This document shows, piece by piece, positions 548 through 10,384 of a stretch of DNA of 52,139 nt. The position numbers and the translations under genes are program-made. Within the stretch, counting starts at the first letter, position 1. Every line of letters begins with the position of its first letter. A model generated the notes under the pieces. The model worked only from the letters and a program-made list of their open reading frames with translations. It was not told the DNA's origin and did no database searches. The stretch is from positions 92,188 to 144,326 of IMG/VR virus record IMGVR_UViG_3300023118_000008; one strand, written 5' to 3'. This DNA is from a virus.

Positions 548-2635
548 TTAACTTGGATTTAACTTCTCCTCTTTGATTTGTTCTCTTGTTTTTATATCAC
601 CATACTTTTCTATAAGCCAATCCTTCTTATAAAGCTCCTTTTGTCTTGTTGTGGGGATTTTTTTTATGCAGTAAGCTACAAACTTCTCTTCTTCTTTTTC
701 TTTCTTTAAACGCTCTCTATCGAGTTTTCTTTCATTTTCAATTCTTTCGGTTGTACCATCTACGTTTTCTATGATTTTTCTAGCTTCGTTAATATAATAA
801 TCATAATTAATTTTATAGTCTTCTTTTTCATAGTAATCCATAAACATAGTTACTTTATTACCACCAACTGTTAATTCCTGTCTACCATCACTATAATTTT
901 TCTTTAGATTTAAACCATCGTTTGAAACATAAAATCGAATAACCTTATCCTCAATATTTTTTACAGTTTCTTTTTCATCATTTTCCAAAGTATAATTTTG
1001 ATTACTTTGAATTTTCTTACCTATGCAAAAATCATAAATTCCCTGGTTTTCAATTTCTCCATAATTGCCGACTTTTAAATGATTTTTTACAGTTGTTTCT
1101 ACAGGTACATCATTTACAAAATATCTTTTAACTGCTATTTGTACAATTCTTTGTGAGCGGTTTTTATGTAATTCTAAATCAATATCAAAAGCTCCTTTAG
1201 TTTTAACTTTTCCTTTAATATCGATTCCTAAATAATTGTTAATATCTCTAATGAATAATTTTTCATAAGTTCCATATTCCAATTGAAGTTTGGTTAAGTT
1301 TTCAATTCCTACACATACATCATAAACCTCTCTTTTTTTATTTTTTGGAACTACAAGTTCTGCTCCATCAGTATTCGCCATAACCATTCTCACACCTTCT
1401 ATTTGAGAAAGTTGTTCACATAACATAGAAAGTATTAATTGACCGTTTACCGTAATGGCCATTTGAAAGAATTTATCGTATAGGAAGCTATGTTCATCTC
1501 CTCCTTTTCCAAATGCAGAATTCAAAAGTAACTTAATTGCAGTATTCTGAGGATTTGATTTGGGAATTAATTTTCTCTTTTCAAATAATTCTTCATATAA
1601 ATCACAAAAAGAATCCGATAAATGTCTTGGATAAAATCTATTTTTAATTGAAATATTGGGATAAAAACTCGCAAAATCTATCGATAGAACAATGTTTTCT
1701 TGATCCGACTTAAAAATGGAATTTCCGCGAGCTGAATGAAGCCCGCCTAATCCATAGAAATATTCCATCTCATCAAAGACCATCAAGTGTTTGAAAGCAT
1801 CCTTTGTATTTTCTGTTATTTCTTGTTCTCTGAAAAACTCTAAAACACTATTAAACTCAGGTGTTGAGAATTTTATATAAGGTAGAATTAATTCATTTAA
1901 TTTAATTACAGATTGTCTTGTCTGCATTTTTTTAAGTTTTGGTTTTTCTATGCCTAATTTCTGCGACATCAAATCTAAAAACAATGCTTCTCCTATACTA
2001 CTATCCGATTTATTAAATAATTCTAAGTGTGGATTTTCCAATTGTTGAGCAAATCTTAATTCTACAAGTTTTTCTGATTTTATAAAAAACTGTTCTGTCG
2101 CATCAGTATCATTTTTACAATAGTCTATAATATCATCGAATTTATCAGCCGATAGTACTTCGTCAAACTTATAAGGTAAGTCTTGGATTTTTTTCCAATT
2201 CATTGAATACTCCAACCATTTTAAACTCGTAGATCTAGCACGGTTGTTGTAATGTGACTGAAGGTATAAATCTAATTGTTGAAAGCTCAATTTAGATTCT
2301 TGATAAGGTGGGAATTCTTTATTATTTATTTTTTGAATAACATTTTGAGCAAACTCCATAATGTGTTTTGCTTTTGTTTTTCCCGAAAGTTTTTTAAAGG
2401 AAGCGTTAGCATCAATAAGCCATTGTAAAACTTGAGCATCGAAACGAACATTATTAAACCCAATGAAAAACCACTTATTCTCAGTACCTTGTTTTAAAAA
2501 AGCCACTAATTCTTCATACTCGTCTTTTCTTTCACTAATTTCAAAAACTTTATATCTATCCTTGTATTTAAAGACAGCGCAAAAAATTGAAAGGTATGTT
2601 TCAATATCGTATGTTAGAAAAGTTGTATTATTCAT
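548..2635 (-). CDS. polB: Family B DNA polymerase
   Basis: 695-residue replicative DNA polymerase with 3'-5' exonuclease. Exo I is D10-I-E12, Exo II is N61-N-V-R-F-D66 and Exo III is Y172-x3-D176. A YxGG-type motif (FYGLGG) precedes polymerase motif A, D320-F-A-S-F-Y-P. Motif B is K368-x3-N-S-A-F-G and motif C is A-N-T-D423-G in place of the usual YxDTD. Motifs A and B are only 48 residues apart, with no room for the TPR1 insertion of protein-primed polymerases such as phi29, so a compact non-protein-primed enzyme is more likely. The C-terminal about 70 residues are highly charged. The start codon overlaps the stop (ATGA) of an upstream gene remnant, so the gene was once translationally coupled. 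It replicates phage DNA in the host cytoplasm. Confidence 0.93.
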   Translation of the reverse strand: MNNTTFLTYDIETYLSIFCAVFKYKDRYKVFEISERKDEYEELVAFLKQGTENKWFFIGFNNVRFDAQVLQWLIDANASFKKLSGKTKAKHIMEFAQNVIQKINNKEFPPYQESKLSFQQLDLYLQSHYNNRARSTSLKWLEYSMNWKKIQDLPYKFDEVLSADKFDDIIDYCKNDTDATEQFFIKSEKLVELRFAQQLENPHLELFNKSDSSIGEALFLDLMSQKLGIEKPKLKKMQTRQSVIKLNELILPYIKFSTPEFNSVLEFFREQEITENTKDAFKHLMVFDEMEYFYGLGGLHSARGNSIFKSDQENIVLSIDFASFYPNISIKNRFYPRHLSDSFCDLYEELFEKRKLIPKSNPQNTAIKLLLNSAFGKGGDEHSFLYDKFFQMAITVNGQLILSMLCEQLSQIEGVRMVMANTDGAELVVPKNKKREVYDVCVGIENLTKLQLEYGTYEKLFIRDINNYLGIDIKGKVKTKGAFDIDLELHKNRSQRIVQIAVKRYFVNDVPVETTVKNHLKVGNYGEIENQGIYDFCIGKKIQSNQNYTLENDEKETVKNIEDKVIRFYVSNDGLNLKKNYSDGRQELTVGGNKVTMFMDYYEKEDYKINYDYYINEARKIIENVDGTTERIENERKLDRERLKKEKEEEKFVAYCIKKIPTTRQKELYKKDWLIEKYGDIKTREQIKEEKLNPS

Positions 2636-2706
2636 ACTTTTTTAATTTTAAGCTCTAGTTCTTTGTCTAGGATTTCGTATTGTTTTTGTTTGTAAATGTA
2701 GTTCAA
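2632..2706 (-). pseudogene. 3' remnant of a gene truncated by the TnpB element
   Basis: Between the tnpB stop and polB lies an open frame of 24 codons, rich in Lys, Glu, Gln and Tyr, with no ATG. It reads L-N-Y-I-Y-K-Q-K-Q-Y-E-I-L-D-K-E and ends K-K-V-stop. Its TGA overlaps the polB ATG in the ATGA arrangement used throughout the neighbouring operon. Its frame continues only about 13 codons into the end of tnpB before a stop. I read it as the C-terminus of a gene whose 5' part was removed or displaced when the TnpB element arrived. Alternatively it is a tiny gene starting at TTG (2704-2706). Confidence 0.45.
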
Positions 2707-2708
2707 AA

Positions 2709-3890
2709 TTATAGTTGTTTTATGCCTTTCGGCGTTATACGTTTATTTCCTGCTTCACTGACCTTGCTAATGCAAGAATTCTCCACAGGCACTTCGGGCA
2801 TTTTTGTCCCTGATATCCCTTCTTTTAAAATATTTTTCGCCGCGTTTACGTCACGGTCTATTTCTAAATTACAAGATTGGCATTTGTAAGTTCTTTCAGA
2901 TAAAAGTAGAATTTCTTTGATATTACCGCAACCTGAACAAGTTTTAGACGAGGGAAACCATCTGTTTATCTTAATTAAATTCCTACCATACCAATTGGCT
3001 TTATATTCCAACATCTGAATCAATAATCCCCAAGATACGTCTGAAATATGTCTTGAAAGCTTCTTTTCTTCCATCATACCTTTTACATTTAATGTTTCAA
3101 CTACTATGACTTGGTTATCGTTCAATAGTAAGTTTGTGATTTGATGATAGTAATGCTCTTTCTGTCTTGTAATTTTTCTGTTTATTTTTGCTATTTTTAT
3201 TTTTAACTTTTTTCTGTTTTTACCTCCTTTTTTAGTTTTTGAATGCTTTCTTTGTAACTTCCTTAATTTATAGTAACTTGATTGCAAATACTTTTTATTT
3301 TCAAAAGTTTCTCCTTCAGATGTGATAATTAAGTCTTTAATTCCTAAGTCTATTCCAATTTTACTTTCTATTTTAGTTAGAATTTTAGTATCCTCAGTTT
3401 CTATTAAAAACGTAGCGAAATAATCTCCACATAAATCTCTTTTGAAAGTACACTGCCTTATTTTATGTGTTTCTAAAAGTTCATTATACTTTTCAGAGGT
3501 CTTAAAATTTATTTTGTTTTTAAAGAATGTTAAGTTATTATTTTTACAGTATATTGCTTGGTAAGCTGTAAATGATTGCAAACCTTTCTTAGACTTAAAT
3601 TTTGGAAATCCTGAGCCTTTAAAGAACTTTTTATATGAAGCTTCAACATTTAAAGCGGCATCTCTTACACACTCTGCTTTACATTTTACAAGCCACTCAG
3701 ACTCTTTTCTTATTTGAAATAATTCTTTTTGCATTGTGAAACCTGAGACATTTACTTTGTAATTGTCCCAAAGATGCTTTTTGTACTCAAGGCACAGATT
3801 GTAGGAAAAACGATATCCCTGGAAATGCTGTTCTAACATTTCTTTTTGCTTTTCTGTTGGATATAGTTTTACTTTTAATCTTTTGTACAT
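2709..3890 (-). CDS. tnpB: TnpB, RNA-guided nuclease of IS200/IS605-IS607 type
   Basis: 393 residues, the usual TnpB length. The N-terminal region matches the TnpB/OrfB helix-turn-helix and wedge region (Y-K-R-L-K-V-K-L-Y-P-T, and K-G-S-G-F-P-K-F-K). The RuvC site is complete: D181 in G-I-D-L-G, E265 in V-V-E-T-L and D345/D347 in I-D-R-D-V-N-A-A. The zinc finger is C318-x2-C321 and C337-x2-C340. TnpB enzymes are DNA nucleases guided by an RNA transcribed from the 3' end of their own gene and the adjacent flank. No TnpA transposase is present, so it is a solitary tnpB acting as a selfish nuclease or a domesticated one. Its ATG is one base after the stop of a tiny RHH gene, so the two are co-transcribed and probably coupled. 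It interrupts the operon leading to polB. Confidence 0.95.
   Translation of the reverse strand: MYKRLKVKLYPTEKQKEMLEQHFQGYRFSYNLCLEYKKHLWDNYKVNVSGFTMQKELFQIRKESEWLVKCKAECVRDAALNVEASYKKFFKGSGFPKFKSKKGLQSFTAYQAIYCKNNNLTFFKNKINFKTSEKYNELLETHKIRQCTFKRDLCGDYFATFLIETEDTKILTKIESKIGIDLGIKDLIITSEGETFENKKYLQSSYYKLRKLQRKHSKTKKGGKNRKKLKIKIAKINRKITRQKEHYYHQITNLLLNDNQVIVVETLNVKGMMEEKKLSRHISDVSWGLLIQMLEYKANWYGRNLIKINRWFPSSKTCSGCGNIKEILLLSERTYKCQSCNLEIDRDVNAAKNILKEGISGTKMPEVPVENSCISKVSEAGNKRITPKGIKQL
2720..2738 (-). ncRNA. Hairpin at tnpB 3' end, part of the presumed guide (omega) RNA
   Basis: The last codons of tnpB encode a short hairpin on the minus strand: ACGCC, a GAAA tetraloop, then GGCAT (2735-2722). 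TnpB omega RNAs are known to overlap the 3' end of the gene and extend past it, with the guide lying beyond the element's right end. The scaffold would therefore cover roughly 2700-2850 and the guide would be flank sequence left of about 2705. The exact right end cannot be fixed by eye. Confidence 0.35.
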
Positions 3891-3891
3891 T

Positions 3892-4008
3892 TTACTCGCT
3901 TAATTTCATTCTGACAAAAGCGGAAACTGAAATATTCAGTTCTTTTGCTTTTTGTTCTATTTTTTCTTTAAGTTCTTTTGAAACTCTTATTCTTAGTTCC
4001 TCTTCCAT
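3892..4008 (-). CDS. Small ribbon-helix-helix (Arc/CopG-like) protein upstream of tnpB
   Basis: 38 codons. The N-terminus has the RHH beta-strand pattern E-L-R-I-R-V-S, followed by helix A (K-E-L-K-E-K-I-E-Q-K-A-K-E-L-N) and helix B (S-V-S-A-F-V-R-M-K-L). RHH proteins dimerise through the strand and bind operator DNA with it; many are autorepressors. A strong AGGAGT Shine-Dalgarno (4017-4012) precedes the ATG. The TAA (3892-3894) is one base from the tnpB ATG, so the pair should be translated from one message. A similar peptide precedes the homing endonuclease at 9042-10202. The likely role is control of tnpB expression; this is inferred from position and fold only. Confidence 0.75.
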   Translation of the reverse strand: MEEELRIRVSKELKEKIEQKAKELNISVSAFVRMKLSE

Positions 4009-4011
4009 AAT

Positions 4012-4050
4012 ACTCCTACAAATATACTACATTAATATTTAATATCCAAA
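4012..4050 (-). promoter_or_regulatory. Promoter, palindrome and RBS of the RHH-tnpB pair
   Basis: On the minus strand: TTTG (4050-4047), 20 bases, TATATTTG (4026-4019), a full match to the Bacteroidota promoter consensus. The spacer contains the palindrome ATATT-A-AATAT (4045-4035), a natural operator position for an RHH repressor. AGGAGT follows the -7 element almost directly, leaving a very short untranslated leader. Confidence 0.6.
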
Positions 4051-4075
4051 TGTTTGTTAATTTTTTAACGTTTTA

Positions 4076-4471
4076 CTACCAAGTTTCTGTAGAAGTTTTT
4101 CTGACCCACCAACTCAAACTGTTTCTTAGTTCCAAACGATAACTATCAAAAATATCTCCAACCTTGTAGAAATCTTCTCTTGGTATTTTCCTAATCAGGT
4201 AGTAATCATACTCTACTGACCACACTCCCCAAGTATTGTCTATGTATTTTCCTTTGTGCAGATTTATAAAGTGAATGACTCCATAGCCGTTTTTATAAGC
4301 CATTACCATAGCAATTTCTTTGTCTTTCTTTTTTATGGCGAAGTCTACACTATTCAAATGACATTTATATGTCCAATTTATCTTTCCTACCTTTACCTTA
4401 ATCTTTTTACAAGTTGACGTGATTTTGTCTCTTATTTGTTTTTCGGCGATATTATTGTTGAAGCTAAACAT
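4076..4471 (-). CDS. Hypothetical phage protein, 131 aa
   Basis: Soluble, basic N-terminal half and an aromatic-rich C-terminus (W-G-V-W-S-V-E-Y-D-Y-Y, and S-L-S-W-W-V-R-K). I do not recognise the family. No signal peptide or membrane segment is visible. Its ATG lies inside the last codons of the upstream 77-aa gene (8-base overlap), so the two are coupled. It is the last gene before the RHH-tnpB insertion. It ends in TAG immediately followed in frame by TAA. Its position in the operon leading to polB suggests an early role. Confidence 0.75.
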   Translation of the reverse strand: MFSFNNNIAEKQIRDKITSTCKKIKVKVGKINWTYKCHLNSVDFAIKKKDKEIAMVMAYKNGYGVIHFINLHKGKYIDNTWGVWSVEYDYYLIRKIPREDFYKVGDIFDSYRLELRNSLSWWVRKTSTETW

Positions 4472-4697
4472 ACTCCCTAATACCCTCTCTTAGGAATTTA
4501 TCAGCATATTCTCCTAAAACTTTTACCGAACCTTCATAACTGTCTTTATTCCTTGATACGTATTGTACCTCTTCAATTAGGTCTGTTATTAAATTACACA
4601 TCACTTTCAAGTTTTCTAATCTTTGAGGATCTCTTGAGGCACAACCTAGAGGATTTATTTCTCCTACTAATTTATTTACTATTTCCTTAATTTCCAT
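4464..4697 (-). CDS. Conserved small phage protein of unknown function, 77 aa
   Basis: Predicted all-helical. The segment I-N-P-x-G-x-x-x-x-D-P-x-R-x-E-N-L-K and a C-terminal A-D-K-F-L resemble a small protein I recall from many phages and Bacteroidota genomes, for which I know no established function. It terminates in TAG within the start of the 131-aa gene and begins just after the 87-aa gene. Part of the coupled early operon. Confidence 0.75.
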   Translation of the reverse strand: MEIKEIVNKLVGEINPLGCASRDPQRLENLKVMCNLITDLIEEVQYVSRNKDSYEGSVKVLGEYADKFLREGIREYV

Positions 4698-4698
4698 A

Positions 4699-4962
4699 TT
4701 ACATTACTTTATCAAACCAATTTAAAAACTGTTCTATCTCTTTTCTGTCTATAAATAAAAATCCGTGAATTTCAATCTCTTGTGTTTCAATGCTTTTCCC
4801 GCCGATTTTAAAAGAGCCGTCAAACTTTAATACTCTCTCAACTTCTTGTAAAAAGTCTTCTTTGAGTTCATACATCTCTCCACATGGATAATTATTTACT
4901 TCTATTTTACCATTGTCGGCAGAGAAGCTCCCATAAGTTAATTCAATCTTGTTTGTTACCAT
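4699..4962 (-). CDS. Hypothetical protein, 87 aa
   Basis: Acidic protein with alternating beta-like and helical segments; no motif recognised. Starts 2 bases after the stop of the interrupted gene at 4965-5195 and ends 1 base before the 77-aa gene, which is typical operon packing. No signal peptide or TM segment. Confidence 0.7.
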   Translation of the reverse strand: MVTNKIELTYGSFSADNGKIEVNNYPCGEMYELKEDFLQEVERVLKFDGSFKIGGKSIETQEIEIHGFLFIDRKEIEQFLNWFDKVM

Positions 4963-4964
4963 AA

Positions 4965-5195
4965 TTATTGTTTTAAAAGTTCTTTGAATTGTTCTAGTGT
5001 TATTTCTTGGTCTTCTTCTACCGTAATGCTTATATTGAAGTCTGTTTCATCAAAATATAGAAAATTATAATAATCTTCTTTGCATAGCCAATATTCGGGA
5101 CCAATTTTAAAACCAGCATCTAAAATAAGATTTTCAACCTCTCACAGCATTTCTTCATCCTTGATGAACAATACCTTGTTTTTAAATTGTTTCAT
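4965..5195 (-). pseudogene. Small gene interrupted by an in-frame TGA
   Basis: From ATG at 5193-5195 the frame reads 17 codons (ending E-E-M-L), then TGA at 5142-5144, then 58 more well-behaved codons (E-V-E-N-L-I-L-D-A-G-F onward) to TAA at 4965-4967. The second part has no ATG, so it cannot easily be translated alone. Composition and packing (2 bases from each neighbour) fit one 76-codon gene. Changing one base (TGG to TGA, a G-to-A transition) explains it: the residue would be Trp in M-L-W-E-V-E-N-L. Alternatives are stop readthrough or a sequencing error. TGA acts as a real stop in the neighbouring genes. Confidence 0.6.
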
Positions 5196-5197
5196 AA

Positions 5198-5353
5198 TTA
5201 AGCGTCTTTTAATTCAGACCATTTGTTATAAAAGTTAACTTCTAAGTTTCTTAGTTCAATATCCTCCATTTCAGATAGGCCAATTAAACTTTTCTGAGTT
5301 TTTAATTCTTCTAATTTATCGTGGATTTTCCACACTTCTTCCTTTGTTGTCAT
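5198..5353 (-). CDS. Small hypothetical protein, 51 aa
   Basis: ATG at 5351-5353, TAA at 5198-5200. Charged, helical, with a coiled-coil-like run (K-L-E-E-L-K-T-Q-K-S-L). It overlaps the end of the secreted-protein gene by 38 bases in another frame, and ends 2 bases before the ATG of the TGA-interrupted gene. The overlap is longer than elsewhere in the operon, so the start could be a later in-frame codon such as the internal Met of L-S-E-M-E-D. Function unknown. Confidence 0.6.
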   Translation of the reverse strand: MTTKEEVWKIHDKLEELKTQKSLIGLSEMEDIELRNLEVNFYNKWSELKDA

Positions 5354-5597
5354 CCTCTATATAATTAATTGGTTCTATGTCTTGTTCGTTTTTCTTTTCT
5401 ATAACTACTTCGGGTAAAAGGTTTCTAATTCCTAATTCGTTTGTTTTATAGCTTTCTGTTGTGTACTCTGTTTCTATGATTATTTGTTTAGGAACTAACT
5501 CTTGCAAACCTGCTTCGTTTACTTGGAATACTTCTGTTTCTTGTTCTTGCGCCGAAATTAAAATCGGAAAGAGTAAAAATAATATTAATGTTTTCAT
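5316..5597 (-). CDS. Small exported protein with two copies of a 24-residue repeat
   Basis: 93 residues. The N-terminus is a classical signal peptide: M-K-T, a hydrophobic core of Leu/Ile/Phe, and cleavage after I-S-A before Q-E-Q. The mature part contains two related segments, N-E-A-G-L-Q-E-L-V-P-K-x-I-I-I-E and N-E-L-G-I-R-N-L-L-P-E-V-V-I-E (consensus N-E-x-G-L/I-x-x-L-x-P-x-x-x-I-E). The start overlaps the upstream stop (ATGA). A phage early gene with a signal peptide most likely acts in the periplasm or at the cell surface, for instance in superinfection exclusion; that role is a guess. No lipobox. Confidence 0.8.
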   Translation of the reverse strand: MKTLILFLLFPILISAQEQETEVFQVNEAGLQELVPKQIIIETEYTTESYKTNELGIRNLLPEVVIEKKNEQDIEPINYIEDDNKGRSVENPR

Positions 5598-5935
5598 GTC
5601 TTTTTATTATGTTCGATTAATTTATTGAAAGTGTCCTCTTCTAGAATTTCTTTTAAAATATTTTCCGCCTTATGAGTCCAACTAAGTCCATAATGAGCTG
5701 ACTTAACTTGTTCATAGCCTAATTTTTCTAGATTTTCTTCTATAAGATCTATTATTTCGTCAGTAGCTATTCTTGCAAAATAACCTTCTTCCTGCTCTTT
5801 GAATAATTGTTCTATGTGAGTTCTTATAATCCATTCGCAGTCTGCTTTAAACTGTTCTTGTTCTTTAGTTTTGTGCGACCAAATTGAATGGCTGTCTCCA
5901 TCGCAATCATATTGTGTCAGTTCAAATATTTTCAT
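5594..5935 (-). CDS. Hypothetical acidic helical protein, 113 aa
   Basis: Glu-rich, predicted mostly alpha-helical, cytoplasmic. N-terminal F-E-L-T-Q-Y-D-C-D-G-D-S-H-S-I-W is distinctive, but I cannot assign it to a family. Both ends are ATGA overlaps with the genes before and after it, so it is translationally coupled within the early operon. Confidence 0.75.
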   Translation of the reverse strand: MKIFELTQYDCDGDSHSIWSHKTKEQEQFKADCEWIIRTHIEQLFKEQEEGYFARIATDEIIDLIEENLEKLGYEQVKSAHYGLSWTHKAENILKEILEEDTFNKLIEHNKKT

Positions 5936-6546
5936 TTATTCATTTTATAAAATTCTTCTGCAAATCCTTGACTGCACAGGCTTCGAAAGTCCGAGTCATT
6001 TTTTATATTTTCTTTGAATGGGTAAAACTCTTCTAAGTGGTTTATTGCACTTTTATGTAGGAAGGCTAAAGACGGCTTATTTCTTCCTGGTCTTACGTAT
6101 AAGTTTTCATTCTTCAAAACGTCTTCCCACTTTTTAAACTTCTTTTCGGGCATTTTAAAATTTCCCCACAAAGCTGTCTTTTTAGTATAAGGACTTCCAA
6201 ATTCCCAAGGTTGGTAAACGTCTTTAGGTTTTCCTAAGATGTCTTTGAGCTTTCCATTATAAGGGTTCTCTAGGAGCCACCATTCAGGTTTAGTTTCTTC
6301 AATTATTCTTAAACAATGATTGACTAAAAACATACCTTTTTCTAAGTCATTTTCTTTGTGAAAGCCTTTGGCTGTTGAAAATTCTCTACAAACTGGATTG
6401 CATATTACTCCATGTATTTTTAAATCGGTTTTGAAGTTTTCTACGCCGATTTCCTCACCAATTAAAATAACATTATAATCAGAGTCCTTTTGATAGAAAT
6501 AGCTGTCAGAACCTATATCAGCACAGAGGTGTAAGATGTTTCTCAT
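5932..6546 (-). CDS. Atypical C5-cytosine-methyltransferase-like protein
   Basis: 204 residues, much shorter than standard C5 DNA methyltransferases. The N-terminal L-H-L-C-A-D-I-G-S-D resembles a SAM-binding motif I. The catalytic-loop position reads N-P-V-C53-x-E-F-S, where normal enzymes have P-P-C-Q-x-F-S. Motif VI is E93-N-P. G-S-P-Y-T-K-K-T-A-L-W-G may stand for motif VIII, and R-P-G-R-N-K-P-S-L-A-F-L-H-K-S-A is a further conserved block. I recall similar short proteins in many phages, annotated as DNA methylases. No obvious target-recognition domain is present, so it may need a partner or modify another substrate. Coupled by ATGA overlaps on both sides. Confidence 0.75.
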   Translation of the reverse strand: MRNILHLCADIGSDSYFYQKDSDYNVILIGEEIGVENFKTDLKIHGVICNPVCREFSTAKGFHKENDLEKGMFLVNHCLRIIEETKPEWWLLENPYNGKLKDILGKPKDVYQPWEFGSPYTKKTALWGNFKMPEKKFKKWEDVLKNENLYVRPGRNKPSLAFLHKSAINHLEEFYPFKENIKNDSDFRSLCSQGFAEEFYKMNK

Positions 6547-6977
6547 TTGACTAATTTTAGTGCTTCATTAATTCCAAACTCTAGAGCTTCTTCGTAGGAT
6601 TTATTTGCTTTTTTATCAACCCATTCCTTGAAAATTTCTTTAGTTTTATCTAGTTTATTAGTGACTTCTTTTACACGTATATCATCAATTTCTTTTGTAA
6701 CTGAATAATAAAAAGCACGATTTAATTTATACCCTATTGATTTTTGTACGAATATATTAATATGCACATTATACTCTTCTCTCAACCATTTTTGTAAAAG
6801 TTCTAAACTTGGTGCGGGATATCTTGAATATTCGCTTGTACTCTCTTTGTAACCTTGGAACGTATAATCTAACTCCCCATAAAAATCATAAAATTTATCG
6901 TCCGATTGAATCCAATCAAAACCTTTCTTTACGGCTAACTTTACTGTTTCGTAACTTGCTATTTTAAGTTCTTTCAT
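6543..6977 (-). CDS. Conserved phage protein of unknown function, 144 aa
   Basis: The ATG at 6975-6977 overlaps the upstream TGA (ATGA), as elsewhere in the operon, so I prefer it to the ATG two codons earlier (6983). The block Y-P-A-P-S-L-E-L-L-Q-K-W-L-R-E-E-x-N-V-H-I is a motif I recall from many small phage proteins; I know no established function for it. The C-terminus is helical and Lys/Glu-rich (S-Y-E-E-A-L-E-F-G-I-N-E-A-L). Cytoplasmic, probably an early accessory protein. Confidence 0.8.
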   Translation of the reverse strand: MKELKIASYETVKLAVKKGFDWIQSDDKFYDFYGELDYTFQGYKESTSEYSRYPAPSLELLQKWLREEYNVHINIFVQKSIGYKLNRAFYYSVTKEIDDIRVKEVTNKLDKTKEIFKEWVDKKANKSYEEALEFGINEALKLVK

Positions 6978-7213
6978 TCCCATTTTAAGATTTTAATGTT
7001 ATTTGCTTTTTCAAACTGTTTTATTACCTTTTCTTTTTCTTCGCGGATTTTTTGTGCTGAGGGTTTCTTAGTAAATTTAGAAATTGCCACGCCTTGGTCT
7101 GATGAACCTATGCATTCAGTTTCTATGTTATGGGTTGAATACAGCTCTTTGAAGACGTTATCATCATGTTCTAATCCTTTTTCTAAAAGATATTTTGTGT
7201 CTATTTCTTGCAT
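6974..7213 (-). CDS. Hypothetical protein, 79 aa
   Basis: The frame is open further upstream (to 7288), but that extension overlaps the Zn-ribbon-like gene. The ATG at 7211-7213, preceded by AGAGAA and clear of the upstream stop, is the better start. The protein has an acidic N-terminal half and a basic helix at the end (S-A-Q-K-I-R-E-E-K-E-K-V-I-K-Q-F). Family not recognised. Its TGA overlaps the ATG of the next gene. Confidence 0.65.
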   Translation of the reverse strand: MQEIDTKYLLEKGLEHDDNVFKELYSTHNIETECIGSSDQGVAISKFTKKPSAQKIREEKEKVIKQFEKANNIKILKWE

Positions 7214-7229
7214 AATTGTTCTCTTAGTT

Positions 7230-7427
7230 TCATAAAATAAAATCTGTTGTATGTTCGTAATTAGTTTTTCCACAATATTTGCATTCATATTTTTCTGTAA
7301 CTCCGCAATTATTGTAATTTCCTATTTTTGCTGAAAATTTTCTCATGGAATCATCGAAATACTTTATCTTTTTAGATTGGAATTTAAACCAATGGAGTCC
7401 TAAAGTGCAAAGAATATGTTTATTCAT
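7230..7427 (-). CDS. Small Cys/His-rich protein, 65 aa
   Basis: The start is set at 7425-7427 because this ATG overlaps the upstream TGA (ATGA); the frame extends to 7466 but that would overlap the previous gene. The C-terminal part has C-G-V-T-E-K-Y-E-C-K-Y-C-G-K-T-N-Y-E-H, three Cys and a His that could bind zinc. N-terminal H-x-L-C-T-L-G-L-H-W-F may contribute further ligands. Probably a small zinc-ribbon-like phage protein; function unknown. Confidence 0.65.
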   Translation of the reverse strand: MNKHILCTLGLHWFKFQSKKIKYFDDSMRKFSAKIGNYNNCGVTEKYECKYCGKTNYEHTTDFIL

Positions 7428-7741
7428 ACTGTTTTCTGTATTAATTGTTCTGCATTTATTGGGCAAATTCCTAAATGTTTTCTGTTTAAATAAATTCCAT
7501 TGAAGTAATATGGAACTGTTTTACCTTCTTTTATTTTAGTTTTTATTTCCGCGATTTTAAAAGGTTCTGAAACTTGGCCTTTGGTTTGATATATTTCGCC
7601 GACTCTAAAAGGCTTTAATTGCTTTGGTGTTTCTTCCTTCCCTAAATGCTTTTCTATGATAGCTCTTAAATCCTGTTGTGTGATTTGTTTTTTAGCTATA
7701 AAGTTATTCCAAATGTCTTTGGTTAGGCTTGTTGTTAACAT
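7424..7741 (-). CDS. Hypothetical protein, 105 aa
   Basis: I place the start at 7739-7741 (M-L-T-T-S-L), which has a GGAAG motif upstream. The ATG at 7753 would add four residues and lengthen the overlap with the small membrane-protein gene. The N-terminal third resembles a helical DNA-binding or adaptor region (L-T-K-D-I-W-N-N-F-I-A-K-K-Q-I-T-Q-Q-D-L). The rest is beta-like with F-R-V-G-E-I-Y-Q-T-K-G. No family recognised. Its TGA overlaps the next ATG. Confidence 0.65.
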   Translation of the reverse strand: MLTTSLTKDIWNNFIAKKQITQQDLRAIIEKHLGKEETPKQLKPFRVGEIYQTKGQVSEPFKIAEIKTKIKEGKTVPYYFNGIYLNRKHLGICPINAEQLIQKTV

Positions 7742-7833
7742 CTTCCCGCCCAAATTATCAGTGCAAATCCGCCGAAAAAAGCTAAAATCATCAAAGCGCA
7801 GCCATACGTATTTGGAGTTTCGTTATTTTTCAT
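7735..7833 (-). CDS. 32-residue single-pass membrane protein
   Basis: ATG at 7831-7833, TAA at 7735-7737. The N-terminal 11 residues are polar. One strongly hydrophobic segment follows (A-L-M-I-L-A-F-F-G-G-F-A-L-I-I-W-A), then a short basic tail G-R-C. It overlaps the upstream gene by 11 bases and the downstream gene by 7, matching the packing of this operon. It fills a gap that otherwise has no gene. Function unknown; tiny phage membrane proteins often affect host membrane processes. Confidence 0.6.
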   Translation of the reverse strand: MKNNETPNTYGCALMILAFFGGFALIIWAGRC

Positions 7834-8113
7834 TGTTTTCAAATTTTAAAAGACATTCATCTAAGAAATTTAGTCTTTGGCTTTTCGTATTAAACCAAGA
7901 AAATTTGCAATTATAAGATAAACCTTTATTTAAATATTTAGAATCCATGTTTGCTTCTACCTCTTTCAAATTTTTCCAACAGATAAAAATACTATGCCAA
8001 CTTCTTACTTTACAACAAAAATAGTCTTTCTCTATTACTATGTTATTTTCAATTTTCTTCAAAAAACTTTTTCTAAACGGTTTAAATAACCTTGAATTTA
8101 TTAATGCTTTCAT
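7823..8113 (-). CDS. Hypothetical basic protein, 96 aa
   Basis: Lys/Phe-rich with several aromatic residues and a C-C pair (Y-F-C-C-K-V-R-S-W-H-S-I-F-I-C-W); no recognised domain. The start ATG overlaps the TGA of the 48-aa gene (ATGA), and the end overlaps the small membrane-protein gene. A more internal start is possible, but the overlap geometry supports this one. Confidence 0.65.
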   Translation of the reverse strand: MKALINSRLFKPFRKSFLKKIENNIVIEKDYFCCKVRSWHSIFICWKNLKEVEANMDSKYLNKGLSYNCKFSWFNTKSQRLNFLDECLLKFENNEK

Positions 8114-8256
8114 CTTATAATTAATTGTGTTTTACTCTTCCAATGACCTGCTCTTGCTTTAGGGTCTCGATTTATTTCAACTAAACCTTTTGACTCCTGT
8201 ATGATAAATACTTCAACTGGCTCTTTATCTCCGAAGTGGTGGTAATAGTATTTCAT
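8110..8256 (-). CDS. Small basic protein, 48 aa
   Basis: ATG at 8254-8256 overlaps the upstream TGA, and its own TGA (8110-8112) overlaps the downstream ATG; these double ATGA junctions strongly support a real gene. The sequence starts M-K-Y-Y-Y-H-H-F-G-D-K, has beta-like E-V-F-I-I-Q, and ends basic. No homologue recognised. Confidence 0.7.
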   Translation of the reverse strand: MKYYYHHFGDKEPVEVFIIQESKGLVEINRDPKARAGHWKSKTQLIIR

Positions 8257-8483
8257 CTTTTATCCAATAAATCTTGAATTATTAGATGTGAAAATTGACT
8301 AGGAGGTACATTGATGGGTTTCTTGTCTTTTAAATAATTCTGAACCTCTACCTCTGTTTCAAAGTATTTATTTAAAATGAAGTCTACATGCCGTAATTTA
8401 TTATCTTTAGTTTTAACATAAAATCCACCGTCACATAAGTCTCCTTCAAAATATTCTAAGCTTAATTTGTTGATTATATACAT
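8253..8483 (-). CDS. Hypothetical protein, 76 aa
   Basis: The frame is open to 8549, but the ATG at 8481-8483 is preferred. It is preceded by A-rich AAAAATAAGAGAT, the same leader found upstream of the 86-aa gene, and lies just after the upstream stop (8489). The protein begins M-Y-I-I-N-K-L-S-L-E-Y-F and has alternating beta and helical segments with a charged C-terminus. Function unknown. Its TGA overlaps the next ATG. Confidence 0.7.
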   Translation of the reverse strand: MYIINKLSLEYFEGDLCDGGFYVKTKDNKLRHVDFILNKYFETEVEVQNYLKDKKPINVPPSQFSHLIIQDLLDKR

Positions 8484-8488
8484 ATCTC

Positions 8489-8749
8489 TTATTTTTCTAG
8501 TTCTAATTTTACTTCCTGCCAATATTTCTGTCTTTCTAAAACACTCCAATTTCTATCTTTATCTTGGTAAACGCTTACTAAGTCTTGATAGGAACTATTT
8601 TCTTCCAAAATCTCATCAACTGCCAATATTGCACATGCTTTAATTTGGCTTTTATACATTGAAATAGGCAGTTTACCTTTTAACAATTTCATATTGTGCT
8701 TTATATCAAACTTTCCAATCAATTCTTCCGCTTTTTCCTTTGGTGTCAT
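8489..8749 (-). CDS. Conserved small phage protein of unknown function, 86 aa
   Basis: First gene of the early operon. The pattern M-T-P-K-E-K-A-E-E-L at the start, A-x-L-A-V-D-E-I-L-E in the middle and Y-W-Q-E-V-K-x-E-L-E-K at the end is, as I recall it, very common in small proteins of Bacteroidota phages and prophages; I know no established function. All-helical and cytoplasmic. It follows a promoter-like TATATTTG by about 20 bases and an AGAGAT ribosome-binding region. Confidence 0.82.
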   Translation of the reverse strand: MTPKEKAEELIGKFDIKHNMKLLKGKLPISMYKSQIKACAILAVDEILEENSSYQDLVSVYQDKDRNWSVLERQKYWQEVKLELEK

Positions 8750-8768
8750 ATCTCTTATTTTTCTTCTA

Positions 8769-8776
8769 CAAATATA
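8769..8776 (-). promoter_or_regulatory. -7 element of the early operon promoter
   Basis: TATATTTG on the minus strand, matching TAnnTTTG, 19 bases before the first ATG of the small-gene operon and downstream of the late-block terminator. The expected TTTG about 20 bases upstream is not present (TTTCC there), so an activator may be needed. Confidence 0.45.
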
Positions 8777-8823
8777 TGAAATGTTTTCTATTGGAAATTT
8801 ACTTTAACAAAACTTTATAAAAT

Positions 8824-8848
8824 AAAAAATCCCCTAATTAAAGGGGAC
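8824..8848 (-). terminator. Intrinsic terminator at the end of the late block
   Basis: On the minus strand TCCCCT, loop, AGGGGA forms a 6-bp GC-rich stem (8847-8830), followed directly by six T (8829-8824). It lies just downstream of the 52-aa gene and upstream of the early operon, so it separates the two transcription units. Confidence 0.8.
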
Positions 8849-8854
8849 TTGTGT

Positions 8855-9013
8855 TTAGGCATTTAATTCATCTATTTGGGCTTGTAATTTTGCTAACATT
8901 GTGGCTACGTCCTCGCCGTCTTGAATCGGTTCACTTGGAACGTCTTTTGGGAGTGTCAGGGCGTTTAGCTGCGCTACTAGGTTGAACCAATAAAATTTAA
9001 AGAGCTGTTTCAT
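8855..9013 (-). CDS. Small hypothetical protein, 52 aa
   Basis: ATG at 9011-9013, TAA at 8855-8857. The N-terminus is amphipathic (F-K-F-Y-W-F-N-L-V-A-Q-L-N-A-L) and the C-terminus is an acidic helix (V-A-T-M-L-A-K-L-Q-A-Q-I-D-E-L). Last gene before the terminator, immediately after the homing endonuclease cassette. It may originally have followed the 1851-aa gene directly. Function unknown. Confidence 0.65.
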   Translation of the reverse strand: MKQLFKFYWFNLVAQLNALTLPKDVPSEPIQDGEDVATMLAKLQAQIDELNA

Positions 9014-9041
9014 TTTTGTTTATTTATGTTTGGGTTAGTTA

Positions 9042-10202
9042 TTAATCTGTTATCTCTACTGTGTAGTTATAAAGGGCTTCATAGACTCTTGGATCGATCA
9101 AGTCTTTCCATTTGTCGGCTTTTTGTTTTATATAGTCTTCTTTAGCTGTCTTGTACGGTTGGAAGGCTTGCTCTACAGTATCAAAGGTTCCAAGGTAGGT
9201 TGTTTTTCCGAGTTTTGAAATTCTTGCTTGAAACTTATTTCCTTTAATTTTAACACCTGTTGGAAGATTACTATTATTTTTTGACTTCTTCTTTCCAAAT
9301 ATACTGTTAATCTCTCTAGGTACAAAAGAACAAGTTTCTGAGGAGTAGATTTTATTACCTTTTTGTAAAATATCCTTATCTAGTTCAAATCCCCTCATAG
9401 TTTCAGGATTATAGTTGTCTTCCATCCATTGAGCGAAATTCTGAAAATTAAACCATTTTTCAGCTACCATACAATCCTTATAGGTTGGATATTTTTCGTG
9501 CCTCTCCTTACTGTAACACCTACTAAAGATGTTGTACCAAACATTTGAATAAAATAGGGTGAGTGAGTCTTTACAATTAAATTTACCATATCCTAAAAAT
9601 CCTTGTGTTTCAGTTCGGAAATTATAGTTTTTAACCATCCCATCTTTCACATGACTATATTTCTGATTTTTGACTATTGTTCCATCTTCAAACTGTATAT
9701 CTAAGTCATCAGCATTTCTATAAGCTATTATTTCTAATTTACAACCTCTGCTGTTAGTAAATATCTCGCCTGTTCTGTCATTAAATCTTGGCTGGTTGTT
9801 ACTGCTATAACCGCATTTTTTACATCCAGAGCCTCTTAACAAAGTATAGGGGAAGGACTGCCTTTCTCCATGCAGGGGACAATCATACTTGACTTTTTGT
9901 TTTGGATTTTCATATACTGTTTTATCGAAAAACAAACTTGAATGCAGTTGTTGTACTTTTTCTCTGAATGTTTCGATTGTCCATTTTCTAACAGCCTCCC
10001 CAGATTTTAATTTACCACACTCTCTACAACCATTACCCGCAGTATGTGCACTCGCTGTCTGAGAAAAATCTCCATGTATTGGGCAGGTAATAATTACAGG
10101 TGTTTTTGAATTTATATATGTAGACTTAGAATAGTTATAAAAATTATTATGTTTTTTATTCGAATCTAAAATGAATTCTACAATGGTTTTATTTTTAGAC
10201 AT
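9042..10202 (-). CDS. AP2/HNH-type phage homing endonuclease with two zinc fingers
   Basis: 386 residues. Two N-terminal zinc-binding repeats of the homing-endonuclease type: C40-P-x-H43-G with G-x-G-C59-x2-C62-G, and C108-P-x-H111-G with G-S-G-C127-x2-C130-G. The central region (Y-S-N-V-W-Y-N-I-F-S-R-C-Y-S, Y-P-T-Y-K-D-C, D-K-D-I-L-x-K-G-N-K-x-Y-S) matches the common phage HNH-like endonuclease core. The C-terminus, about residues 307-355 (L-P-T-G-V-K and the lysine-rich A-R-I-S-K-L-G-K-x-x-Y-L-G-T-F-D-T-V-E-Q-A-F), is an AP2-like DNA-binding domain. Such enzymes cut alleles lacking the gene and copy themselves in. The ATG overlaps the stop of a tiny RHH gene. It sits between the 1851-aa cargo gene and the 52-aa gene without interrupting either. 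Confidence 0.88.
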   Translation of the reverse strand: MSKNKTIVEFILDSNKKHNNFYNYSKSTYINSKTPVIITCPIHGDFSQTASAHTAGNGCRECGKLKSGEAVRKWTIETFREKVQQLHSSLFFDKTVYENPKQKVKYDCPLHGERQSFPYTLLRGSGCKKCGYSSNNQPRFNDRTGEIFTNSRGCKLEIIAYRNADDLDIQFEDGTIVKNQKYSHVKDGMVKNYNFRTETQGFLGYGKFNCKDSLTLFYSNVWYNIFSRCYSKERHEKYPTYKDCMVAEKWFNFQNFAQWMEDNYNPETMRGFELDKDILQKGNKIYSSETCSFVPREINSIFGKKKSKNNSNLPTGVKIKGNKFQARISKLGKTTYLGTFDTVEQAFQPYKTAKEDYIKQKADKWKDLIDPRVYEALYNYTVEITD

Positions 10203-10329
10203 CTCTTAAAGCATGTTTAATTAACATTCTGACTTGAGAGGAGACTGAAATAGCATTAGACTCTGATAGCACTTTTAGTTGATCCATTAGTTCCTTGCTA
10301 ATCCTAATTTGTAATAATTCTGTTTTCAT
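10195..10329 (-). CDS. Small ribbon-helix-helix protein upstream of the homing endonuclease
   Basis: 44 codons: ATG at 10327-10329, TAA at 10195-10197, overlapping the endonuclease start by 8 bases in another frame. Strand L-L-Q-I-R-I-S, helix A K-E-L-M-D-Q-L-K-V-L-S-E-S-N, then I-S-V-S-S-Q-V-R-M-L-I. It aligns with the RHH peptide before tnpB, sharing E-L-x-I-R-(V/I)-S-K-E-L, S-V-S and V-R-M. A perfect 8-bp inverted repeat lies 13-36 bases upstream of its ATG and is a plausible operator. The likely role is repression of the nuclease, inferred from position and fold. Confidence 0.75.
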   Translation of the reverse strand: MKTELLQIRISKELMDQLKVLSESNAISVSSQVRMLIKHALRDV

Positions 10330-10341
10330 TGTATCTTTACT

Positions 10342-10365
10342 TTATATGTTTGTAAGTACATATAA
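10342..10365 (-). promoter_or_regulatory. Inverted repeat upstream of the RHH-endonuclease pair (possible operator)
   Basis: Perfect 8-bp arms TTATATGT (10342-10349) and ACATATAA (10358-10365) around an 8-base spacer. It lies between the end of the 1851-aa gene and the RHH start. There is no U-run after it, so it is not a terminator. Size and position fit an RHH dimer-of-dimers site. No TTTG/TAnnTTTG promoter is evident nearby. Confidence 0.5.
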
Positions 10366-10384
10366 TAGCAAACATCGTGCCAAA

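Follow-up and report, generated by a model that had tools for sequence, protein, structure and literature searches.

A virus record of 144,326 bases (IMG/VR record IMGVR_UViG_3300023118_000008) ends in a stretch of 52,139 nucleotides, called the window here, which contains a tnpB gene and a gene for an HNH-AP2 endonuclease, and each of them directly follows a very small gene for a ribbon-helix-helix (RHH) protein. In our study, each pair is considered likely to be a mobile, self-promoted operon of an RHH autorepressor and a nuclease, in which the promoter-RHH module has repeatedly become linked with nucleases of unrelated kinds. The adjacency of the two genes, its enrichment in other viral records, the modular junctions between cassettes, the purifying selection on the RHH genes and the shared promoter elements were all observed and they carry this reading. 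The virus appears to be a crAss-like phage of Bacteroidota, judging from its PolB-type polymerase, giant virion open reading frames (ORFs) and small gene sizes.

The two RHH-nuclease pairs and their peptides

The sequence-only reading had described tiny RHH genes on the same strand as tnpB and the HNH-AP2 gene and in front of them, and its coordinates were confirmed (Table 1). One base separates the RHH1 stop from the tnpB ATG, and the 3' end of RHH2 overlaps the start of the HNH-AP2 gene by 8 nt. The homology which it had proposed for the two peptides was found as well, with 47% identity across 32 residues (E 6e-7, single comparison). RHH1 passes the Pfam cut-offs of two families (Table 1), and RHH2 alone lies just under the cut-off of RHH_5 (21.5 bits vs 26). 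The two peptides are the sole matches in the 144,326-base record, both in the PF01402 search and with a 14-sequence RHH profile. Moreover, the RHH profile matches NikA (2ba3, E 0.0011), which is the only sequence match in the PDB, and by these sequence matches the window peptides belong to the ribbon-helix-helix (MetJ/Arc) proteins. RHH proteins have a beta-alpha-alpha fold and form an intertwined dimer. Single-chain structure models of the RHHs gave helices only and are uninformative, since RHH proteins in general are obligate dimers. The peptides have little sequence beyond the RHH core; those of 38-45 amino acids stop at it, and the toxin-binding extension of type II antitoxins is absent.

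The conserved RuvC triad and zinc-ribbon cysteines (Table 1) identify the product of the first nuclease gene as TnpB. No TnpA transposase was found between the conserved flanks at 2636-4100, and therefore the unit is not classed as an autonomous transposon. The HNH-AP2 protein has the sequence and site features of a free-standing phage homing endonuclease, which are the HNH and AP2-like regions, a stand-alone gene and a site that is variable in relatives.

Table 1. Features of the two RHH-nuclease units (positions in the window)
Feature	Position	Strand	Basis
RHH1, 38-aa ribbon-helix-helix protein	3892..4008	-	PF21983 (NikA-like) 4e-7; PF01402 (RHH_1) 3.7e-5; RHH profile
TnpB, 393 aa, RuvC nuclease	2709..3890	-	D181, E265, D347 and four zinc-ribbon cysteines intact
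Possible guide-RNA region at tnpB 3' end	2747..2789	-	weak RAGATH-18 match, E 0.41, 24.6 bits (cut-off 44.9)
TTTGG, possible -33 element of RHH1-tnpB promoter	4046..4050	-	sequence
AATGTAGTATATTTGTAG, -7 box (TAnnTTTG) with upstream TGTAG; candidate operator overlapping promoter	4016..4033	-	common to four other RHH cassettes
RHH2, 44-aa ribbon-helix-helix protein	10195..10329	-	alignment to RHH1; RHH profile
HNH-AP2 endonuclease, 386 aa, N-terminal DUF723-type zinc-finger region	9042..10202	-	phrog_953 9e-64; PF05265
Dyad TTATATGTACTTACAAACATATAA containing TGTAcTTACA, candidate RHH2 operator	10342..10365	-	2/200 shuffles reach its score
TTGGCACGATGTTTGC, putative sigma-54-like -24/-12 promoter immediately downstream of the 1851-aa gene	10368..10383	-	conserved in L257

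RHH genes of this type precede nucleases in other viral records

Other viral records were searched with a profile of six RHHs (100 records) and then with a profile of 14 RHHs (50 more records, of which one was the record of the window and one had been searched before), which makes about 149 other records overall. They had been fetched through TnpB or HNH relatives, which makes nucleases abundant in them; records of this kind also supplied the background, and four of the six seed RHHs were taken from cassettes. The searches gave 15 distinct RHH genes of this type, and another three or four weak profile matches were found not to be RHHs. In 13 of the 15 a selfish nuclease lies directly downstream on the same strand, at a gap of +3 to about -29 nt, and the RHH genes preceding nucleases span 38-60 codons.

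These nucleases belong to several kinds: LAGLIDADG (G013 and G133), GIY-YIG (G004 and G006), DUF723-HNH (G018, with the same in the near-duplicate G143), an HNH/endonuclease VII-like protein behind an RHH with an altered N-terminus (G029), TnpB (G043, G122, a truncated case in G007 and two in G076), a DUF723 nuclease fragment (G076) and a DUF7487/REase-like homing endonuclease (G069). The nucleases of G133 and G122 were recognised by motif inspection, not by family search. The phage G076 (L264, L265 and L266), of 332 kb, carries by itself three different RHH-nuclease cassettes, two of them with TnpB/Cas12-like proteins.

In the background of 20 stretches of 19 kb, nucleases account for 7 of 468 genes (1.5%) and for one of the 198 closely spaced downstream genes; nuclease families were absent from the 25 most frequent families in a PHROG scan of 141 of these 198 genes. 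The resulting enrichment (Fisher p 7e-19) falls to 3e-16 without the profile seeds and to 3e-15 after counting seven cultured-phage RHHs as failures. A PF01402 search of twelve related records yielded one sub-threshold RHH, in G004, overlapping a T5orf172/GIY-YIG nuclease by 1 nt. Further, a DNA pattern scan of viral contigs for the RHH motif, which was blind to the neighbouring genes, returned four stretches of three families, and two of these families precede nucleases: that of G004 (GIY-YIG, 1-nt overlap) and that of L253 (LAGLIDADG, gap of 1 nt; PF14528 2e-10). The RHH-nuclease pairing is thus more than chance and is not a coincidence of the window.

Modularity, selection and insertion sites

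In the loci L258 and L259 the RHH DNA is 67-89% identical and the identity is also high in the last 40 bases upstream; from the RHH stop onward, where the GIY-YIG nuclease gene of L258 is compared with the tnpB of L259, it falls to about 30%. RHH2 and the RHH of L257 share 70% of their amino acids, with different HNH proteins behind them at different genomic sites, and RHH2 is 57% identical to the RHH of L250, the nucleases being HNH and GIY-YIG respectively. Closely related RHHs are therefore found in front of different nucleases. The modular part of the 'RHH governor plus nuclease' idea in the sequence-only reading is strongly supported, and it extends to the GIY-YIG, LAGLIDADG and DUF7487/REase-like proteins. 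Comparisons among relatives gave a dN/dS of about 0.12-0.21 for the RHH coding sequences, and the proposed explanation draws on values of about 0.12-0.16; by this measure the peptides appear to be made and constrained, and the RHH genes behave as translated genes under purifying selection.

A sister phage, G001 (141 kb, found as L157 in the HNH search), encodes the 1851-aa protein at 89% identity; when close relatives were sought through the viral PolB, a single contig of 8.6 kb was obtained. In the HNH position, G001 carries another HNH protein (46% identical) with no RHH gene, and the HNH start codon overlaps the stop codon of the gene for the 1851-aa protein (TAATG). The flanks of the TnpB site are conserved in G001, with the 131-aa gene at 90% and the YIYKQKQYEILDKELELK segment at the right border, and between them lie about 2.9 kb of other genes with no RHH and no TnpB. 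Neither RHH-nuclease pair is present in G001 at the two corresponding sites. Since the flanks match but the contents differ, each unit is bounded by conserved sequence on both sides, and this comparison is consistent with a joint arrival of RHH and nuclease, without proving it.

The DNA beside the TnpB cassette also differs between the two phages: window positions 548-2708 hold a family-B polymerase and L247:10260-12438 an apparent family-A DNA polymerase of G001, with the small gene before the G001 polymerase shortened, which looks like a polymerase replacement adjoining the cassette.

Control regions

The possible -33 element and the -7 box of the RHH1-tnpB unit were assigned by the Bacteroidota promoter form. 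The sequence [A]ATGTAGTATATTTGYA, a Bacteroidota -7 box preceded by an unusual TGTAG, is common to RHH1, L253, L258, L259 and L261, whose nucleases are TnpB, LAGLIDADG, GIY-YIG, TnpB and TnpB. In these five cassettes of three nuclease kinds, TGTAG-TANNTTTG-YA lies 12-22 nt upstream of the RHH ATG. Locus sequence totalling 1.86 Mb, partly redundant, contains only seven such sites and five of them are the RHH cassettes, a count which measures specificity and is not an independent test, as the motif was derived from the same cassette sites. The TGTAG form was present in two of 74 promoter-like sites of the sampled genomes, RHH1 being one of the two.

The RHH2 unit shares a different upstream region with L257, consisting of TTTGGCACG[AG]T[GA]TTTG followed by TGTANNTACA and TTACAAACATAT, and 0 of 200 shuffles were as good. 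The first element may be a sigma-54 promoter by its resemblance, and the TGTANNTACA palindrome upstream of RHH2 is nested inside the longer dyad listed in Table 1.

Proposed mechanism

In this model a cassette has a promoter of its own, followed by an RHH gene 38-60 codons long and by the gene of a selfish nuclease, whose translation is coupled to that of the RHH. The latter is expected to dimerise and to bind an operator over the promoter of its own operon. On entry of the cassette into a naive genome or cell, the nuclease would be expressed, at a high level at first; as the RHH builds up, the promoter would be shut and the nuclease would stay low later. The phage would probably benefit through less self-cutting and a smaller burden. 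The promoter and RHH module would have been combined in this way repeatedly with TnpB, HNH, GIY-YIG, LAGLIDADG and REase-like nucleases. DNA binding and repression are proposed because of the behaviour of the RHH family and of two precedents, the Arc-like/MerR regulators beside cas12k and the autorepression of I-TevI. The autorepressor role which the sequence-only reading had suggested is plausible, given the shared promoter elements, the palindrome, the translational coupling and the reduction of the RHH to its DNA-binding core.

A wider form of the proposal, in which the RHH family is a self-standing, interchangeable and copy-sensing governor moving among unrelated RNA-guided and protein-guided phage nucleases, is more doubtful and is offered tentatively. 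A resident cassette would then shut down the promoters of related cassettes that enter later, and cross-talk or immunity, the latter also raised for incoming phages by the sequence-only reading, would arise between nucleases sharing the RHH type and the operator.

Evidence against the proposal and alternative explanations

Several observations weigh against an autorepressor operon. Two of the 15 surveyed RHHs, both in G115, are not followed by a nuclease, and the next gene of the L251/L254 family from the pattern scan is a non-nuclease. RHHs checked in cultured temperate phages and plasmids adjoin other genes, and when single RHH peptides were used as tblastn queries against phages and plasmids, the matches were few and weak and lay beside other genes. 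The link to nucleases is therefore a property of the large-phage cassettes, not of RHHs at large. The shared promoter elements were defined post hoc and could have been inherited along with the RHH without acting as operators. For most other cassettes, the upstream dyads do not exceed those of shuffled sequence, on which ground simple dyads were rejected as general operators. DNA binding and expression control by the RHHs are themselves inferred.

The sequence-only reading had also expected RHH genes to be enriched upstream of such nucleases, which is very much the case from the RHH side but not from the nuclease side, where an adjacent RHH was found in 0 of about 220 TnpB and HNH relatives of the window nucleases. 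These loci (for TnpB, 8 from cultured phages, 80 viral and 47 further viral and genomic; for HNH, 7 from cultured phages and 6 plus 79 viral) were checked by ORF listing and the RHH profile, which gave one RHH, non-adjacent, over 8,511 ORFs. The association is one-sided: it is visible from the RHH search, and the nuclease side alone would have led to its rejection. Further, the other nucleases of this phage, which are two GIY-YIG genes and one decayed HNH, are without RHH.

The two GIY-YIG genes stand alone at G000 91095-92570 and 78219-79325 (L313:13895-15370 and 1019-2125, minus strand), and a GTTTTCTYGTTTTT...GCCYAAA-like stretch just 5' of both ATGs is perhaps a separate control element. 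The decayed HNH-AP2 fragment at L311:18378-18738 is frame-broken. Among the TnpB relatives, the closest from viral contigs is that of L019 (56%), where a 44-aa TnpA-like helix-turn-helix (HTH) peptide ends right at the tnpB ATG. This peptide (L019:1866-2000) is like the N-terminus of IS607 TnpA, with the recombinase absent, and may be an HTH counterpart of the RHH governor. The tnpB of L099 (54%) begins at the stop codon of a virion gene.

As an alternative to repression, the RHH may be a DNA-binding partner of the nuclease, a targeting or accessory subunit like NikA for the relaxase. This is unlikely, although the NikA-like family is the best Pfam match of RHH1 and NikA the only PDB match, a similar plasmid RHH adjoins a relaxase, and complex formation is compatible with translational coupling. 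A single closely related RHH type accompanies five nuclease folds, including TnpB, whose characterised members are RNA-guided, and proteins with DNA-binding parts of their own; the peptides offer little outside the RHH core for contacting another protein, and relatives of the same nucleases are without RHH.

Neutralisation of the nuclease protein by the RHH, in the manner of a type II antitoxin, is still less probable. RHH domains are frequent in antitoxins, the upstream order and overlap are typical of toxin-antitoxin pairs, and the antitoxins CopG, FitA and HicB are weakly similar in Pfam; however, the 38-45-aa peptides are bare DNA-binding domains lacking a C-terminal toxin-binding extension, and they are paired with unrelated nuclease folds. 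Slightly behind it comes the possibility that the RHH gene is a start-up cistron, which gives a promoter and translational coupling and has little function of its own. The TAATG start of the G001 HNH at the same site, the similar start of the L099 tnpB and the HTH peptide in the RHH position of L019 would agree with it, but the RHH sequence is under purifying selection and one protein family is used repeatedly. A chance neighbourhood or survey bias, suggested by the fetching of the records through nuclease relatives and by the cassette-derived seeds, has a very low probability, as the record-fetching nucleases differ from those behind the RHHs, the background is 1.5% in records of the same kind, and the neighbour-blind scan gave nucleases for two of three families.

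Comparison with known systems

Small regulators of a nuclease-fold protein are known from the type V-K CRISPR-associated transposons (CASTs), where the MerR-type CvkR and the RHH proteins Arc_1/Arc_2 (53-72 aa) regulate Cas12k; CvkR was shown to repress, and several independent acquisitions were inferred (PMC9938897). The likeness to the autorepressor operon proposed here lies in a small MerR or RHH regulator adjoining a TnpB-descended nuclease-fold protein in a mobile element (PMC9938897). The CAST regulator is, however, divergent and resides in a Tn7-like element, whereas the phage RHH gene is co-directional, overlaps or abuts the nuclease gene, and occurs in large phages with at least five nuclease superfamilies, mostly unrelated to Cas12. 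No CAST genes were found in the window region. In phage T4 introns, the expression of I-TevI is blocked by its binding to an operator overlapping its own promoter, which is again a phage homing nuclease with a promoter-overlapping operator (PMC2988022). There the repression is exerted by the DNA-binding domain of the nuclease itself, whereas here a separate, exchangeable gene would do so.

In IS607-type elements TnpA, with its N-terminal MerR-like HTH, precedes TnpB, and the L019 peptide holds the equivalent position; the window TnpB differs in being preceded by an RHH, not an HTH, and the recombinase is absent. The controller (C) proteins of restriction-modification systems are small HTH autoregulators whose genes precede that of a nuclease which may do harm and are coupled to it. 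They resemble the RHHs as coupled upstream autoregulators that delay or limit nuclease expression; on the other hand, C proteins are HTH proteins and the window cassettes have no methyltransferase partner. For TnpB or homing endonucleases with RHH, CopG or Arc-like partners, the open-access literature, with preprints and most subscription journals lying outside it, gave only the CAST regulators and the T4 autorepression.

This study suggests a transferable RHH governor in front of at least five unrelated kinds of nuclease in large phages. How phage-borne selfish nucleases set their dose and remain harmless has been little studied outside the T4 introns, and the coupling of one exchangeable repressor-like gene to nucleases of at least five superfamilies points to a shared answer. 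With a protein of 40 residues and a short promoter, it offers a simple experimental handle. Moreover, the RHH can serve as a practical marker in the search for selfish nucleases that are poorly annotated, among them new TnpB and Cas12-like proteins.

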